A stretch of 43,663 nt of DNA from Bacteriovoracaceae bacterium (GCA_029865945.1 JARXAH010000022.1:1-43663); one strand, 5' to 3'. Positions 36,416 through 43,663 are shown, numbered from the stretch's first letter. Notes: generated by a model not told the origin, from the sequence alone. Program-made: numbers and translations.

Positions 36416-37009
36416 TTACGAATCTTCAAGGGAGGGATTTCTCAATGAGAGGACATTCTCTTCGGCCTGTTTATTCTCCTCATTTTCTTCACTGTGAGAG
36501 AGCGAATTTCGTTTTATGTAATTGTGGGCCCTGCATTGAGACAATTTTGGAAAATATTTTTGTAGGGCGACGAGTTCTTGCAGTCCGAAATTTATGTTTG
36601 AGATTGAGTCTTCGATTAATTTTTTTGTTTTTCCGAATTCCAACATTCGAAAGGCGATTTCTGCAAGTTCTTGTGGCCCGAAAGGTTTAACCACAAAATC
36701 AAAGGCACCCAGTTGCATGGCACTGATGAAGTTTTCTTTTGTTTCGTAGGCACTAATAAAAGTAAACGGCGTACTAATTCCTTTGGATCGCAATTTTTTT
36801 AGTAATTCTAGTCCAGATCCTTGGGGCATATTGATGTCGCAAAAAACAGCGGTAATGTCATTGTTCATTAAGATTTGTTCGGCACTTTTGATATCTGTGC
36901 AGGCAAGACAAGAGACCAGTTCTTTTTTTAGGAACGCCTCGATGATTTCAAGGATGTCTGGTTCATCGTCAATGATGAGAAATTTGCTAATGTATGGGGA
37001 GGTATTCAT
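36416..37009 (-). CDS. Receiver-only response regulator (copy 1)
   Basis: A 197-residue protein with an N-terminal receiver domain: LIIDDEPD with the acidic pocket, phospho-acceptor D58 in VFCDINMP, T/S in FISAYETK, and K in VVKPFGPQEL. No DNA-binding domain follows. The last 65 residues are helical (SISNINFGLQELVALQKYFPKL), then acidic. It is clearly paralogous to the response regulator at 42853-43374, including the tail motif with L-x2-LQKxxPK. No histidine kinase is adjacent. AGGA lies near the ATG. A copy of the cassette palindrome lies 34 bp upstream. Confidence 0.9.
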   Translation of the reverse strand: MNTSPYISKFLIIDDEPDILEIIEAFLKKELVSCLACTDIKSAEQILMNNDITAVFCDINMPQGSGLELLKKLRSKGISTPFTFISAYETKENFISAMQLGAFDFVVKPFGPQELAEIAFRMLEFGKTKKLIEDSISNINFGLQELVALQKYFPKLSQCRAHNYIKRNSLSHSEENEENKQAEENVLSLRNPSLEDS

Positions 37010-37042: not shown

Positions 37043-37068
37043 TTATTCTAATTGGAATAAATAGTCAA
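37043..37068 (-). promoter_or_regulatory. Promoter with palindromic operator, response regulator copy 1 (site A)
   Basis: On the minus strand TTGACT (37068-37063) is followed by two bases, then TTATTCCA-AT-TAGAATAA (37060-37043), an 8+2+8 palindrome with one mismatch. A -10-like TAATTT falls 17 bp after TTGACT, overlapping the palindrome. The layout matches site C exactly, so a protein bound here would sit between and over the promoter hexamers. Confidence 0.65.
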
Positions 37069-37119
37069 TAAATTTGCTAACGTTGTTTAAGCGTGAATAG
37101 GGTTGCTACCTCGTGATAT

Positions 37120-37944
37120 TTATAATTTTATTTTAATTAATACCTTTTGTCCCAATAACAAGCTTCTTGGATCAATGATGGATTGTGGGAATTCAACTAA
37201 AAATCTTTTGCTATCTTCAGCGCCAAGGATTGATTGCAATAGGGGCATGGCATGCCATAGTCTTTGCGACCAGTTCAAGGCCTCGGCCTTTCTATCTTCT
37301 GCAGTGGGTAAAGTTAATGGAAGAGTTTTTAAATCAATTTGGCCTGGATCTATTCCAATATCAATAAACATGCCTCTTAGTTTTAATCCTATGTTTAGAT
37401 CAATTGTACTTTTGGTTTCTATTATTTTTATTTGATCCATTAACCAAGCATTATCGGTGTCAAAATGAGACATAGCTCCGAAAGATTCAATCAGAAAAAT
37501 TTCACTGCTTTCGCTAGCTAACTTGATGATATTTTTAATGGCATGGTAGCGGAGTTCAATGCTAGGTAAGTGTTGAAGTATATAGCGGCAAAAAATTTTA
37601 TTAAATAAACCGATGTTCATTTCACCAACAATGGATTGTTGAAAAAGTTGGATTTTCGATGTTGATGGAAGTTTTTTGTTTTCGCGCTCTGCATCATTAA
37701 GAAGATTAGTAGAGATATCAATCCCACTAATTGAACAAGAAATATTTTTTTCAAGATATTTTTGACACAAGAATCTACTCAATAGTCCAGTGCCACAGCC
37801 TATATCGATAATCCTATCGTTCTCATTCATTGTAATATTTAAGGATTGGATTTCGTCTTCTAGCGAAAAAGTTTTTGATTTTGCTTGTTGTTCCAATCGG
37901 AGTGTTTCACTGGGGTTATCGAGTTGATATGAATTGTTGGCCAT
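37120..37944 (-). CDS. Class I SAM-dependent methyltransferase
   Basis: The product is 274 residues from the ATG at 37944, preferred over one at 38013 because AAGGA lies about 9 bases upstream and the extra segment would cover the shared palindrome. The SAM-binding motif is IIDIGCGTGLL (D47, G49-G53), with an acidic GIDIS after the second strand and a motif-IV-like NKIFCRYILQHLP. This resembles UbiE/COQ5-type small-molecule methyltransferases. The substrate is unknown. It diverges from the acyltransferase gene, so the two may act on the same metabolite (inference). Confidence 0.82.
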   Translation of the reverse strand: MANNSYQLDNPSETLRLEQQAKSKTFSLEDEIQSLNITMNENDRIIDIGCGTGLLSRFLCQKYLEKNISCSISGIDISTNLLNDAERENKKLPSTSKIQLFQQSIVGEMNIGLFNKIFCRYILQHLPSIELRYHAIKNIIKLASESSEIFLIESFGAMSHFDTDNAWLMDQIKIIETKSTIDLNIGLKLRGMFIDIGIDPGQIDLKTLPLTLPTAEDRKAEALNWSQRLWHAMPLLQSILGAEDSKRFLVEFPQSIIDPRSLLLGQKVLIKIKL

Positions 37945-37960
37945 TGGTGATATCCTTTTT

Positions 37961-37978
37961 TTATTCCATTTGGAATAA
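37961..37978. promoter_or_regulatory. Palindromic operator in divergent promoter region (site B)
   Basis: TTATTCCA-TT-TGGAATAA has perfect 8-bp arms. It lies between the methyltransferase (start 37944) and the acyltransferase (start 38030). For the acyltransferase a TAATAT at 38000-38005 would place the palindrome centre near -42.5. For the methyltransferase TTGAAT (38009-38004) and TAATAT (37987-37982), 16 bp apart, would place it over the start of transcription. Confidence 0.65.
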
Positions 37979-38029
37979 TTAATATTAACATCACTTTCGT
38001 AATATTCAATCATTTTTCAAGGAGGAAAT

Positions 38030-38788
38030 ATGGTAAATGTCTTAAAGGAAAATCAAAATGAAAGAGATGTCCAACTTTTGCTCATTCAAAATTATTTTTC
38101 ACAAGTTGGGGAAAACGTAGATTTAGATAAATCCTTTTGCCAAATGTTAGCTACTAAAAAAAAGGGATATCTCACGATGCATGAGTCCAGATTTCTCCCT
38201 GTTAATACTTACGATTATTTTTCTATTCATATATTACTGTGTGACAGGCAATCGAAAGAAATAATTTTAACCGCTAAAATTGTAACTTATTTTGATTGTG
38301 AATTTTATCATTTAAAATTTCCCCTCTTAGACATGGAAGGTGTTTTTAATCCTTTAGAAATGCAGGAAGTAAAAAAAATCATAAGTACCAGAGTCAATCT
38401 TGGACAAAATATTAGTTACTCTGGAGGGTGGACTATTAACCCTAAGTTTAAAGGGTTGGGAATGTCATCTTTACTTAGAGATATTTATACCGGGATACAT
38501 TATCAGGTACATCAGTATTTCAACATTCATACAATGATGGGATTTGGAGCACCTAAAGTTGGAAGTTTAGAATTCTTTAAAAAATGGGGAGTAAGGCCAC
38601 TTGTTGTTGAGGGCAATGAAATGTCACCCATCGCTATGCCTTTTTGTAACTTTACAGAATTAGTTATGGCCTGGGGAGATATTTCAGATTTAAGTGACTA
38701 TAAAAAAGAAATGGGGCAAAAATATAATTCAATTTGGCAAAATCGAAAAGAATATTTATTAAGAAATAATATTAAGGTGGCCTCGTAA
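38030..38788 (+). CDS. GNAT-fold acyltransferase, possible N-acyl amino acid/AHL-type synthase
   Basis: A 252-residue cytosolic protein. NTYDYFSIHILLCDRQSKEI at about 59-78 resembles the 'YD..S.HLLV.D..tG' stretch of FeeM/OlsB/PEP-CTERM-type N-acyltransferases and, more distantly, LuxI. The acyl-donor-binding motif A reads TINPKFKGLGMSSLLRDIY (135-153), followed by FFKKWGVRPL near 195-205. Such enzymes transfer an acyl chain to an amino acid or lactone. The actual donor and product are not readable. AAGGAGG sits 5 bases before the ATG, predicting strong translation. The 3' end overlaps the convergent regulator gene by 30 bp. Confidence 0.55.
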   Translation: MVNVLKENQNERDVQLLLIQNYFSQVGENVDLDKSFCQMLATKKKGYLTMHESRFLPVNTYDYFSIHILLCDRQSKEIILTAKIVTYFDCEFYHLKFPLLDMEGVFNPLEMQEVKKIISTRVNLGQNISYSGGWTINPKFKGLGMSSLLRDIYTGIHYQVHQYFNIHTMMGFGAPKVGSLEFFKKWGVRPLVVEGNEMSPIAMPFCNFTELVMAWGDISDLSDYKKEMGQKYNSIWQNRKEYLLRNNIKVAS

Positions 38789-39643
38789 ATTGTTTTCTTT
38801 TAAGTAAAAATCTAACTTCTGTCTCCCTTTATGAAAAGAGGTTTTAACATTAATGATATTCATTGGGCGTTTCCCCATGAGTACCGTTGTGCATTCCATT
38901 GTAAATTTTTTAAATAAAACAACTTCTGGAGTAGTTAATTCTTTTAGCTTTAGGCCATCGTGAATATCTTGTTTTGCCAAACTACTGACATGTAAAATGT
39001 TATCGTTTTTTTTAAGGGAGTACTCAAAATTGGATTCATATTTTGTTGAATTGACCACCATTAGTCGGAGCGTAGATTCATCTGATCGAAAAGTTTTTGC
39101 AAGTTGTAGTATCTGGTGACGATTATTTATTTGGTAGCAAAGATAACTTAATTCACGAAAATGTAGTGGCGTAAAATTAAGTTTACTACTACAAAAACGA
39201 AAAAACTTATTGACAAGTAAAACGTTAACTTGAATTTGATCATTTGTGAAACATTCCCTGGTTAAGTGTAAGTGATCCAGTAAGGCCTGTTCGGTTTGAA
39301 TATTAAATTTGCATCTTACGTAGGCTAGGCAGGCCTGAAGGACGGAAATTTTAGTGCCTGCGCAATCTAAATATTCTTGAGGAATGGACCAAGGCGTACG
39401 AAGGAATTTCTCTTTAATTTCTTTCCACGGGGGAGCATCTGACAATATATGATCGATAGAGATTCCTATTCGCTCTGAAATTTTCAAAAAATGAGATAAC
39501 TGAATTTTATTTTTTAAAAGCTTTTCTTTGAATTTTTTTGGATGATCATTTAAAAAAAATTCTAATAGGGAGGGATTATTCCCGAATTGATAAATAAGGT
39601 TGTGGAAAAAAAAATATAATTTTTTATCAAAATCCTGATACAT
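38759..39643 (-). CDS. Degenerate XRE-like regulator paralogue
   Basis: A 294-residue protein whose N-terminus (FFLNDHPKKFKEKLLKNKIQLSHFLKISERIGISIDHIL) lines up with the HTH region of its upstream neighbour but lacks the usual Q..A...G.S recognition pattern. The C-terminal part also aligns loosely with the neighbour (helical core with LLDHLHLTRECF..IQVNVLLVNKFFRF, then NVKTSFHKGRQKLDFYL). It may be a partner or antagonist that cannot bind DNA on its own. It overlaps the upstream regulator gene by 17 bp and the convergent acyltransferase by 30 bp. The ribosome site is weak, which suggests coupled translation. Confidence 0.6.
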   Translation of the reverse strand: MYQDFDKKLYFFFHNLIYQFGNNPSLLEFFLNDHPKKFKEKLLKNKIQLSHFLKISERIGISIDHILSDAPPWKEIKEKFLRTPWSIPQEYLDCAGTKISVLQACLAYVRCKFNIQTEQALLDHLHLTRECFTNDQIQVNVLLVNKFFRFCSSKLNFTPLHFRELSYLCYQINNRHQILQLAKTFRSDESTLRLMVVNSTKYESNFEYSLKKNDNILHVSSLAKQDIHDGLKLKELTTPEVVLFKKFTMECTTVLMGKRPMNIINVKTSFHKGRQKLDFYLKENNLRGHLNIIS

Positions 39644-40406
39644 ATATTTTAATTTCCAATCCTGGGTGTTCTGCCCGGTTTTGGGATTTATGAATTTTTA
39701 AAGGAGTATGAAAAGTTACCAGAAAATCAAAACAAATAAACTTAAGGAGAAAAGAATCTTCTAGGTTTGATGTATTTTGCGAGTTTGAATTTTTTAAGGA
39801 AATTGCAAATTGAAGATATTTTTTTTCTTTTTTGTAGTCACTCACATTTATCATTTGATTGTTGATGACAATGGATTTAATTAAAGATTCAGAAAAGGGG
39901 ATTTCATCTTGGGGGATATAACTTTTAAATATTTCTTCTACTTTTTCTTTAGGGGCATATTTGATGAGCTCATTGATGAACCTACTATTGAATTTAATGG
40001 AAGAAAAAGAAAGAATATCTTTATCCATGTTTAGAGATTGATAAATCTTGGGAAATTTATTTCTCCTTAAGGTCTCAAGTAGAAAAAAAATACATTTTGC
40101 TGATAAAAATCCCTCTTTTAAATAGATGGCATAGGGTGAAAAGTTACTTAATTGGAAATCATTATCGTTGTATGGGTGCGTGATATGTCCAAAGCGGAAA
40201 ATATTTAAATCAATTTTTAGCTTTTCTGAAAGCTGTATTACAAATTTTAAATCTGGGCTGAGGTGTCCGTTTTCTATTTTTGAAAGAGCGGATTGTGAAT
40301 AACCTAATAATGAGCAAAATTGTTGCTGAGAAAGTCCATGAATTTTGCGAAGGCTTCTGATAATCTGAGATTCATCGAAAAAATATTTTTCTGATACTGA
40401 AATCAT
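39627..40406 (-). CDS. XRE-family transcriptional regulator with C-terminal sensor-like domain
   Basis: The product is 259 residues from the ATG at 40406 (a GTG at 40424 would overlap the hydrolase gene; GGTGGAG lies about 12 bases before the ATG). The XRE/Cro-type helix-turn-helix is clear: SLRKIHGLSQQQFCSLLGYSQSALSKIENGHLSPDLKFVIQLSEKL, roughly residues 17-62. The remaining 180 residues are a helical then beta-rich domain I cannot name, which could bind a ligand or mediate dimerisation. It lies in the hydrolase operon and is the prime candidate to bind the repeated palindrome. Confidence 0.85.
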   Translation of the reverse strand: MISVSEKYFFDESQIIRSLRKIHGLSQQQFCSLLGYSQSALSKIENGHLSPDLKFVIQLSEKLKIDLNIFRFGHITHPYNDNDFQLSNFSPYAIYLKEGFLSAKCIFFLLETLRRNKFPKIYQSLNMDKDILSFSSIKFNSRFINELIKYAPKEKVEEIFKSYIPQDEIPFSESLIKSIVINNQMINVSDYKKEKKYLQFAISLKNSNSQNTSNLEDSFLLKFICFDFLVTFHTPLKIHKSQNRAEHPGLEIKIYVSGF

Positions 40407-40414
40407 CTTGTGAT

Positions 40415-41395
40415 TTATCTCCACCTTACTAGTTCTGGGAATTCAATGTGTGAGTAATGTTTGGAATTCTTCAGAACTTTATATTTATTGTGTTTGAAGT
40501 AATTTCTTAGGTAAGGAATTTCATTTGAACGTACTATAACTGGGTCATTTTCTCCGAAATAAGTAATGGTAGGAATGGAAATTTTTTGATTTGGACTTAA
40601 TTTTACGATTGGCATACTTAGTCTTACGCTAAAAAAACTGGCCGGGTCAAAAGCAAAGGCCCCAGTTAAGAAACTAAAATATTTACTCAAATTTTCAAAG
40701 CTACTCCAGTAGTTCGTAAATAACAGTAGAGGCTCATACTTTGAGGCCAAAGTAAAGGCCTCTAATTTTTTTTGATTAAAACCAGGTTGTAATTCATTCA
40801 TCAGTTGAAAAATTTTTACACTAGTTTCATAGTCGCCACTCGATGCTAATCCGTTGGCCGCCAAAGTAAGGATATTTTTATCGGAATTATCTATATTTAA
40901 TCCTGGGGAGAAAAGTATAATTTTTTTAATATTTTTTGGAAATTTTTTTGCTAGATAAACAACTGCATGAACACCAAATGAGTGGGCCACTAAGGTTACC
41001 TTTATTTTTGAATTGTTTCTACAATGGTTAGATTCAATCCATTTTTTTTGATGTTGGAGTATTCCCAGAAAAGATTTCTTAGCATTTACTAAATAATGAT
41101 GAAAAGCATTTTCATGTGTGAACGGAAATCCTGATGATCTCAATTGAGAGGGTTCATCAATTCCTATTGGACTAAGGCCTAAAGACTCAAGATAGGGGAA
41201 TAAAAGTGATCGCTCGGGATTTGAATTAAATCCTGGGCCCCCTGGAAGAAAGACAACAAGTGGCCTCACAGAACTACGTTGGCAATTATGAGATTCATTT
41301 GCGTATGTTTCAAGTGCGTATTTTTCAAAAGCGTAAGAAGGGCCTTGAGCAATCACAAATAGCATTGATAAAATAAATGGAATGAACCGATTCAT
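40415..41395 (-). CDS. Exported alpha/beta hydrolase
   Basis: A 326-residue protein with a signal peptide (about residues 1-22). The oxyanion region is FLPGGPGF (GGPG, typical of proline iminopeptidase/S33-like members). The nucleophile elbow is A-H-S139-F-G, the acid is probably D284 in GENDPV, and the base is H313 or H316 in SKHYSHIEFPE. The full triad suggests an active periplasmic esterase, amidase or lactonase. AAGGAG lies 8 bases before the ATG. It is first in an operon with the two regulators, so it could release or destroy a signal (inference). Confidence 0.85.
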   Translation of the reverse strand: MNRFIPFILSMLFVIAQGPSYAFEKYALETYANESHNCQRSSVRPLVVFLPGGPGFNSNPERSLLFPYLESLGLSPIGIDEPSQLRSSGFPFTHENAFHHYLVNAKKSFLGILQHQKKWIESNHCRNNSKIKVTLVAHSFGVHAVVYLAKKFPKNIKKIILFSPGLNIDNSDKNILTLAANGLASSGDYETSVKIFQLMNELQPGFNQKKLEAFTLASKYEPLLLFTNYWSSFENLSKYFSFLTGAFAFDPASFFSVRLSMPIVKLSPNQKISIPTITYFGENDPVIVRSNEIPYLRNYFKHNKYKVLKNSKHYSHIEFPELVRWR

Positions 41396-41410
41396 CGACT
41401 ATTCTCCTTG

Positions 41411-41449
41411 TATTCCAACGAGGATATTCCAGTTGGAATAATGAGTCAA
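41411..41449 (-). promoter_or_regulatory. Promoter with palindromic operator, hydrolase-regulator operon (site C)
   Basis: On the minus strand TTGACT (41449-41444) is followed by two bases, TTATTCCA-AC-TGGAATAT (41441-41424; 7+2+7 perfect), and TATCCT as a -10 17 bp after TTGACT. A further half site TTGGAATA (41418-41411) lies just downstream. The layout is the same as site A. Confidence 0.7.
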
Positions 41450-41508
41450 CGAAATGATGAAAGTGATAGTGTCTTTGAGTAAGATCAAAGACACCCCTGA
41501 GTTTAAGA

Positions 41509-42852: not shown

Positions 42853-43374
42853 TTACGCCGCTTTTTTTATCGTTCGTTTTTGAAAATTGTTGGCCAAATG
42901 CTGGCCGATCTTAGGATAAATTTTCTGTAATTTTAGGAGCTCGTCCATTCCTAAATTTAAATTATTAATATTTCTCTGGATGTGACTTAAAATTTTTCCA
43001 ACTTCTAGCATTCTAAAAGTGACATCCGCCAATTCTTGGGGAGAAAAGGGTTTAACAATATAATCAAAGGCATTAAGTCTGAGAGCATCAATAAGATAAT
43101 TTTTCGTGTCATAAGCACTGACAAAAGTGATCGGTATTAAGCGTCCTTCTTTTCTTACCTGAGTTAGAAACTCAATTCCCGTGCCTCCCGGCATACTCAT
43201 GTCACATAAAATGGCAGTAAAATCCTCATTTCTTAACGCTTTAAAAGCGTCACTGATGTTGGAGACACCCACTGTATCAATATTTTCAGCTTTTAAGAAA
43301 TGTTGAATAATTTCTCTAATATCTCCCTCGTCATCAATAATGAGCACCTTGCTTATGATACTTTCATTGTTCAT
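42853..43374 (-). CDS. Receiver-only response regulator (copy 2)
   Basis: A 173-residue protein with a complete receiver domain (LIIDDEGD, D58 in ILCDMSMP, SAYDTK, VKPFSPQEL) and a short helical tail NINNLNLGMDELLKLQKIYPKIGQHLANNF that matches the tail of copy 1. The shared tail motif (L-x2-LQK-x2-PK) is not a DNA-binding domain; it may bind a partner. Its ATG overlaps the TGA of the histidine-kinase gene (ATGA), so it is the partner of that kinase. Confidence 0.92.
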   Translation of the reverse strand: MNNESIISKVLIIDDEGDIREIIQHFLKAENIDTVGVSNISDAFKALRNEDFTAILCDMSMPGGTGIEFLTQVRKEGRLIPITFVSAYDTKNYLIDALRLNAFDYIVKPFSPQELADVTFRMLEVGKILSHIQRNINNLNLGMDELLKLQKIYPKIGQHLANNFQKRTIKKAA

Positions 43375-43663
43375 GCGATACTCCTAAAGATGTGACTTTC
43401 TGTTTTATCTAAATTTATTTTTCTAGGAATTTTTAAAACAAAAGTCGTATGTCCTTCGACACCTTCATTTTGATAGTAAAGATCCCCGCCATGACTTTCT
43501 AAAATATTTTTTGAAATGCTTAAGCCTAAACCGGTTGAACTATTTCCTTTAGTGCTGAAAAACGGTTGCATAATTTTATCTTGGATAGTAGGTGAGATTC
43601 CCATTCCTCCATCGATGATTTGGATCAAAATGTACTCCGAATGATGGCGATCATCTAATCTAA
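43371..43663 (-). CDS. Histidine kinase, C-terminal part (runs off window)
   Basis: Only the last 97 codons are in the window and the frame is open to its edge. Visible are the ATP-binding G1 box IIDGGMGIS (usually DNGxGI, here D-G-G-M-G-I), the F-box region PFFSTK, and the G2 box TGLGLSISKNILESHGG. It is a two-component sensor kinase with a HATPase domain. Its TGA overlaps the ATG of the response-regulator gene. Confidence 0.9.
   Translation of the reverse strand, partial: RLDDRHHSEYILIQIIDGGMGISPTIQDKIMQPFFSTKGNSSTGLGLSISKNILESHGGDLYYQNEGVEGHTTFVLKIPRKINLDKTESHIFRSIA

Follow-up and report, generated by a model that had tools for sequence, protein, structure and literature searches.

Does a palindrome that recurs three times beside regulatory and enzymatic genes of a Bacteriovoracaceae bacterium mark a private regulon, and if so, which protein reads it and what do its genes make? 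We address this question in a window comprising the whole 43,663-nt stretch of DNA analysed here. A first-pass annotation of that window had read the three copies as one shared operator, placed over biosynthetic, regulatory and hydrolase genes and most likely governed by an XRE-type protein encoded among them.

Palindromic sites in the window and the genome

At a threshold of up to three mismatches, the 18-bp palindrome TTATTCCA-N2-TGGAATAA matches the window exactly three times, with at most one mismatch in each case. These are the copies first noticed by eye, at 37043-37060, 37961-37978 and 41424-41441 (one, zero and one mismatch, respectively), and the remark that the window holds no other copy stands even at three mismatches. 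Each copy also lies directly upstream of genes, as had been claimed, at distances of 35, 16 and 51, and 30 bp. Site 1 (TTATTCTAATTGGAATAA, 37043..37060, one mismatch) sits 35 bp upstream of a response regulator gene (36416..37009, minus strand; PF00072, E 1.5e-26), within the spacer of a promoter-like TTGACT-N17 element whose -10 sequence, TAATTT, is weak. Site 2 (TTATTCCATTTGGAATAA, 37961..37978, no mismatch) occupies the space between divergent genes for a SAM-dependent methyltransferase (MT; 37120..37944, minus strand; PF13847, E 2e-9), 16 bp away, and an acyltransferase (AT; 38030..38788, plus strand), 51 bp away. Site 3 (ATATTCCAGTTGGAATAA, 41424..41441, one mismatch) lies 30 bp upstream of an alpha/beta hydrolase gene (40415..41395, minus strand; PF00561, E 6.6e-12), whose product carries an N-terminal signal-peptide-like segment, and falls between the two hexamers of TTGACT-N17-TATCCT, in the 17-bp spacer ahead of the hydrolase operon. 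A weaker tandem site (TATTCCAACGAGGATA, 41411..41426), with two mismatches to the core, overlaps site 3. All four sites are recorded without strand.

The hydrolase operon runs in the order hydrolase, XRE1, REG2, with the genes mutually overlapping. XRE1 (39627..40424, minus strand) is an HTH_3 regulator (PF01381, E 8.8e-13) and the likely operator-binding protein; REG2 (38759..39643, minus strand) is its apparent paralogue, with an eroded HTH and a C-terminal domain of predicted H-NOX/V4R/VirS-type fold (residues 97-289). The response regulator beside site 1 was rejected as a candidate DNA-binding protein, as it consists of a receiver domain only and has no output domain. An anti-phage defence set was likewise rejected, since PADLOC recognised nothing beyond generic HTH, receiver and methyltransferase components.

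The longest methyltransferase open reading frame, starting at 38013, would span site 2. Alignment with homologues begins at the ATG at 37944, so we place the methyltransferase start there and take site 2 as intergenic. The positions of the sites also suggest a sign of regulation. A protein bound within a promoter spacer, as at sites 1 and 3, would stand in the way of RNA polymerase, which makes repression the simpler assumption there. The acyltransferase has a promoter-like TTAACA-N17-AATCAT (37985-38013) that starts directly downstream of site 2, which makes activation possible.

Two further features adjoin this stretch. The inverted repeat TGTCTTTG-N8-CAAAGACA, at 41470-41493 and directly after an isocitrate dehydrogenase gene, is probably the terminator of that gene. 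Towards the end of the window lie a second receiver-only response regulator (42853-43374), which resembles the one at 36416, and the end of a histidine-kinase gene (43371-43663) that the contig boundary interrupts; neither gene (42853-43663) has an operator copy nearby.

We scanned the host genome (3,079,245 bp, or 3.08 Mb, in 103 contigs; 96% complete) with the same palindrome. At one mismatch or fewer it occurs in four places, three of them in the window and the fourth (C57:40349) within a pilin-like open reading frame, so that the dozens of unrelated copies that would have spoken against a regulon are not there. The 12-bp core, TATTCC-N4-GGAATA, is found in 26 places at the same threshold. 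Outside the window almost all of these lie within open reading frames, and only three are intergenic (L175, L181 and L182). The strong intergenic sites of this genome are the three in the window, and 'private' is a fair word for them. One of the intergenic core matches (TATTCCATTGGGAGTA, L175:1451; G000:C73:33750-33765) stands 19 bp upstream of a gene for a secreted protein of about 197 residues, which is a possible further member of the regulon.

Conservation of the cassette and its operator

Relatives of the acyltransferase occur in 43 of the 129 genomes of the family that was searched and, by profile search, in 93 of 369 genomes across the phylum; the nearest named records are metagenome-assembled genomes (MAGs) of Bacteriovoracaceae and Halobacteriovoraceae. 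We retrieved a first set of 40 homologous loci; MAG contig ends truncate several loci. These acyltransferases share just 17-48% identity with the window copy. Near them, iterated profile searches found a methyltransferase gene in 29 of the 40 loci, XRE- or REG2-type genes in 36 and hydrolase-family matches in 31 (the window is left out of these counts), defining a conserved cassette of an acyltransferase, a methyltransferase (often replaced elsewhere by a ThiF/E1-like enzyme), two regulators and an alpha/beta hydrolase. The acyltransferase and REG2 genes are usually convergent, and the flanking genes vary between genomes. Loci that lack the methyltransferase often have a ThiF/E1-like gene in its stead (PF00899, with E 1.8e-39 in L079). 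We observed such genes in L070, L073, L077-L080, L085, L090 and L119-L126, and in another family, f6, it is the ThiF-like gene that usually accompanies the acyltransferase.

Small soluble HATPase-type proteins of about 200 residues, with no sensor domain, recur next to the cassette (L067:6914-7564, L071:6249-6869, L076:2506-3129, L077:7507-8148, L079:7498-8148, L081:6780-7406 and L085:3146-3733), and several have an operator copy directly upstream. One locus has an acyl-CoA dehydrogenase gene (L083:4279-5448) between the methyltransferase and the acyltransferase, 3 bp before the latter; its presence hints at an acyl-CoA substrate for the acyltransferase.

The operator is kept along with the genes. 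Upstream of cassette genes, intergenic DNA contains the core at two mismatches or fewer 40 times, in 27 of the 40 loci, a density of 2.83 per kb compared with 0.48 per kb in the other intergenic DNA of the same loci. Sixty permutations of the half-site gave a mean of 1.9 sites, the true arrangement included, and the next best reached 8. A second set, of 36 more distantly related loci that mostly come from other families, has the core 14 times, in 8 loci (permutation mean 0.88, next best 3). Intergenic DNA should be saturated with substitutions at these protein identities, though related genomes are not independent of one another. The position of the operator varies by genome. It stands before different cassette genes, before HATPase-type kinase or response regulator genes that neighbour the cassette and, in many loci, upstream of the XRE operon itself; in L098 a perfect copy lies 26 bp upstream of a homologous response regulator gene. 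A private regulon under one operator, as first proposed, is thereby supported twice over, by sites nearly confined to this stretch and by their retention in homologous loci, and common control of these genes is very likely.

We dismiss as extremely improbable the reading of the palindromes as chance events or as a generic element of promoters in AT-rich intergenic DNA. At the loose three-mismatch threshold chance supplies 0.86 matches per window and 7 of 100 window shuffles reach three, but the sites are scarce genome-wide and recur strongly next to the same genes even in distant loci, and permuted half-sites and non-cassette DNA give low counts.

Which protein, then, binds the operator? Across both sets, a site is present in 31 of 50 loci that carry an HTH-bearing gene of the XRE1 type and in 4 of 26 that do not (Fisher p 1e-4, uncorrected for kinship). 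This co-occurrence is the best evidence for XRE1 as the operator binder, an assignment that we consider likely. No site occurs in the f6 loci (L119-L126), nearly all of which are without an XRE1-type HTH protein. Seven first-set loci with an HTH gene showed no site within two mismatches. HTH_3 is recognised in 30 of 31 XRE1 orthologues, and few parts of the protein are better conserved than helix 3 (SQSxxSKIEN in the three closest); covariation of recognition-helix residues with site loss is only suggestive. The first-pass annotation had named the XRE protein at 39627-40406 (39627-40424 in our gene model) as the regulator. Its association with the sites supports that choice, and binding is what we infer from it.

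The sites could instead be genuine operators of another regulator encoded elsewhere in the genome, with XRE1 and REG2 acting otherwise. A palindrome of this kind would suit many dimeric regulators, and a few site-bearing loci have no HTH-bearing gene of the XRE1 type, some of them at contig ends. We regard this reading as improbable, given the association of sites with the HTH-bearing genes, their presence upstream of the operon that encodes them in many loci and their near confinement to this locus genome-wide.

Predicted folds of the acyltransferase and REG2

The acyltransferase has no Pfam family: the 38 members examined gave only stray weak matches. There is one TIGR03694 match, a weak one (E 0.03), and a search of PDB sequences with the family profile returned nothing. 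Structural models of the acyltransferase (by AlphaFold2) and of REG2 were built from four sequences each, those for the acyltransferase being the window protein and three fetched relatives. The acyltransferase model (pLDDT 82.5, pTM 0.81) is best matched by the N-acyl amino acid synthase FeeM (Z 16.2, rmsd 2.7 over 175 residues, 8% identity), followed by the CoA-dependent acyl-homoserine lactone (AHL) synthases BjaI (Z 16.0, rmsd 3.0, 191 residues aligned) and RpaI (Z 15.8), and after these by LasI (Z 14.5) and MesI. The stretch matched by plain GNAT enzymes is shorter, and sequence identity to the known synthases is 8-10%. By its model, then, the protein has the AHL-synthase fold, tied with that of FeeM. 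The fold does not give the substrate, and GNAT enzymes are common. Many family members share a D-x-x-D spacing around residue 62, which we take to recall LuxI. This autoinducer-synthase-like fold, and the phylum-wide spread of family and cassette, had gone unnoticed in the first-pass annotation.

The end of the protein shows a bias of its own. Among the acyltransferase (38030-38788) and its orthologues (L066-L154), 44 of 79 end in -AA and 66 of 79 in A; 11 of 638 other open reading frames have the -AA ending. A protease degron on the synthase is a possible explanation.

REG2 was modelled with middling confidence (pLDDT 75.8, pTM 0.67). Residues 97-289 superpose on H-NOX domains with Z up to 14.3 over about 172 residues, and the model matches the N-terminal domain of M. 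tuberculosis VirS with Z 13.0. V4R (PF02830) has no match in the window protein; at E <= 0.1 it is found in 4 of 36 relatives of the Bacteriovoracaceae set and in 10 of 13 of the ThiF-type set. A haem-binding H-NOX is an unlikely identity for REG2, the 36-member alignment containing no conserved histidine column.

REG2 had been counted as a second XRE protein beside XRE1. XRE1 does have a true HTH. The second protein (38759-39643) has none recognisable on its own and carries a ligand-binding-type fold: Pfam detects no HTH_3 in the window copy and matches only 3 of 36 relatives. The REG2 family profile nonetheless matches XRE proteins (E 1.4e-7) and, applied to the genome, detects XRE1 with similarity extending past the HTH, so REG2 is probably a sensory paralogue of XRE1 with an eroded DNA-binding domain. 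Direct comparison of small REG2 and XRE1 alignments is weak (probability 6.5%); the paralogy is based on the larger profiles.

A candidate acyl-signal circuit

Computation gives us the sites, their conservation, the cassette and the folds. From these we propose, with somewhat better than even confidence, that the palindrome serves as operator for an autoregulated local circuit of signal type, LuxI/LuxR-like but built from non-homologous parts. XRE1, probably together with REG2, would bind the three promoters and so control its own operon, the acyltransferase/methyltransferase pair and the receiver-only response regulator. The acyltransferase would join an acyl group to an amine, for example an amino acid, and the methyltransferase, or the ThiF/E1-like enzyme in other genomes, would modify the product, most simply by capping a carboxylate. 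Members of both the methyltransferase and the ThiF-like superfamilies can act on carboxylates. The ligand-binding-type domain of REG2 may sense the product and alter the hold of XRE1 on the operator, closing a feedback loop, and the alpha/beta hydrolase would degrade or mature the product. That a small-molecule product is sensed by the XRE1/REG2 pair seems fairly probable; that it serves as a cell-to-cell signal is a more tentative proposal.

The strongest competing explanation retains the autoregulation and the product feedback through REG2 and XRE1, and dispenses with communication between cells. The cassette would then make a cell-internal or membrane product, or a metabolite directed at prey, such as an acylated amino-acid lipid, a surfactant or a toxin-like small molecule. 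The best structural match of the acyltransferase, FeeM, makes N-acyl amino acids that are not established signals, and natural-product clusters, too, typically show tailoring by a methyltransferase or a ThiF-like enzyme. Set against this, the constant part of the cassette is small and mostly regulatory, with two regulators and with response regulator and kinase genes under the same operator, and the conserved set includes neither a transporter nor a large biosynthetic enzyme. We consider a product of this kind plausible, if rather less than probable.

The signal-type circuit resembles LuxI/LuxR systems in several respects. The synthase fold is common to the acyltransferase and the CoA-type synthases BjaI, RpaI and MesI, as well as LasI (closest to BjaI among these), and a synthase gene adjoins regulators, with a palindromic operator over synthase and regulator genes. 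It differs in its regulators, which here are XRE and V4R/H-NOX-fold proteins, and in the addition of a methyltransferase or ThiF-like enzyme. Canonical LuxI/LuxR membership was rejected: PF00765 (LuxI) matches none of the 38 acyltransferase family members and nothing in this genome, and PF03472, the LuxR autoinducer-binding domain, is also without a match in the genome, with E. coli as positive control. Elsewhere in the phylum, five proteins with open frames of about 270-340 residues (L155-L159, in G008, G085, G323, G082 and G044) have weak PF00765 matches, four of them above the cut-off, and possibly represent a further synthase-like family.

Other systems resemble single components. FeeM, for all its structural likeness, shares 8% of its residues with the acyltransferase, and the regulatory context differs, being confined here to the operator and the XRE pair. 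The fold common to H-NOX, V4R and VirS superposes on REG2, which departs from it in its eroded XRE HTH and its lack of a conserved histidine. For the product, the nearest idea is the N-acyl alanine methyl esters (NAMEs) of Roseovarius, described as AHL analogues that lack assigned synthase genes and that are reported to take no part in AHL signalling (PMC11580390). Such a compound would arise from an acyltransferase acting with a carboxyl methyltransferase; the parallel is one of analogy only.

Bacteriovorax marinus is listed only as an AI-2 'listener' (PMC11069264). The literature searched describes no acyl-type signal synthase/receptor pair for Bdellovibrio-type predators, and we found no earlier description of the cassette in open-licence texts. 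The cassette might represent a phylum-wide signalling class in predatory bacteria, comprising a non-LuxI synthase, an acylated and carboxylate-modified signal, a receptor pair of XRE and H-NOX/V4R-fold proteins and, where the XRE protein is present, a conserved operator of 16-18 bp; we consider this possible, though somewhat short of probable. One palindrome spotted by eye can reveal a regulon conserved far outside its own genome. If the circuit is as proposed, it would bring in a family of synthases other than LuxI, together with a receptor of another type for the product of an acyl synthase, and would offer the study of communication between predatory bacteria a set of named genes with an operator and a molecule that can be tested.
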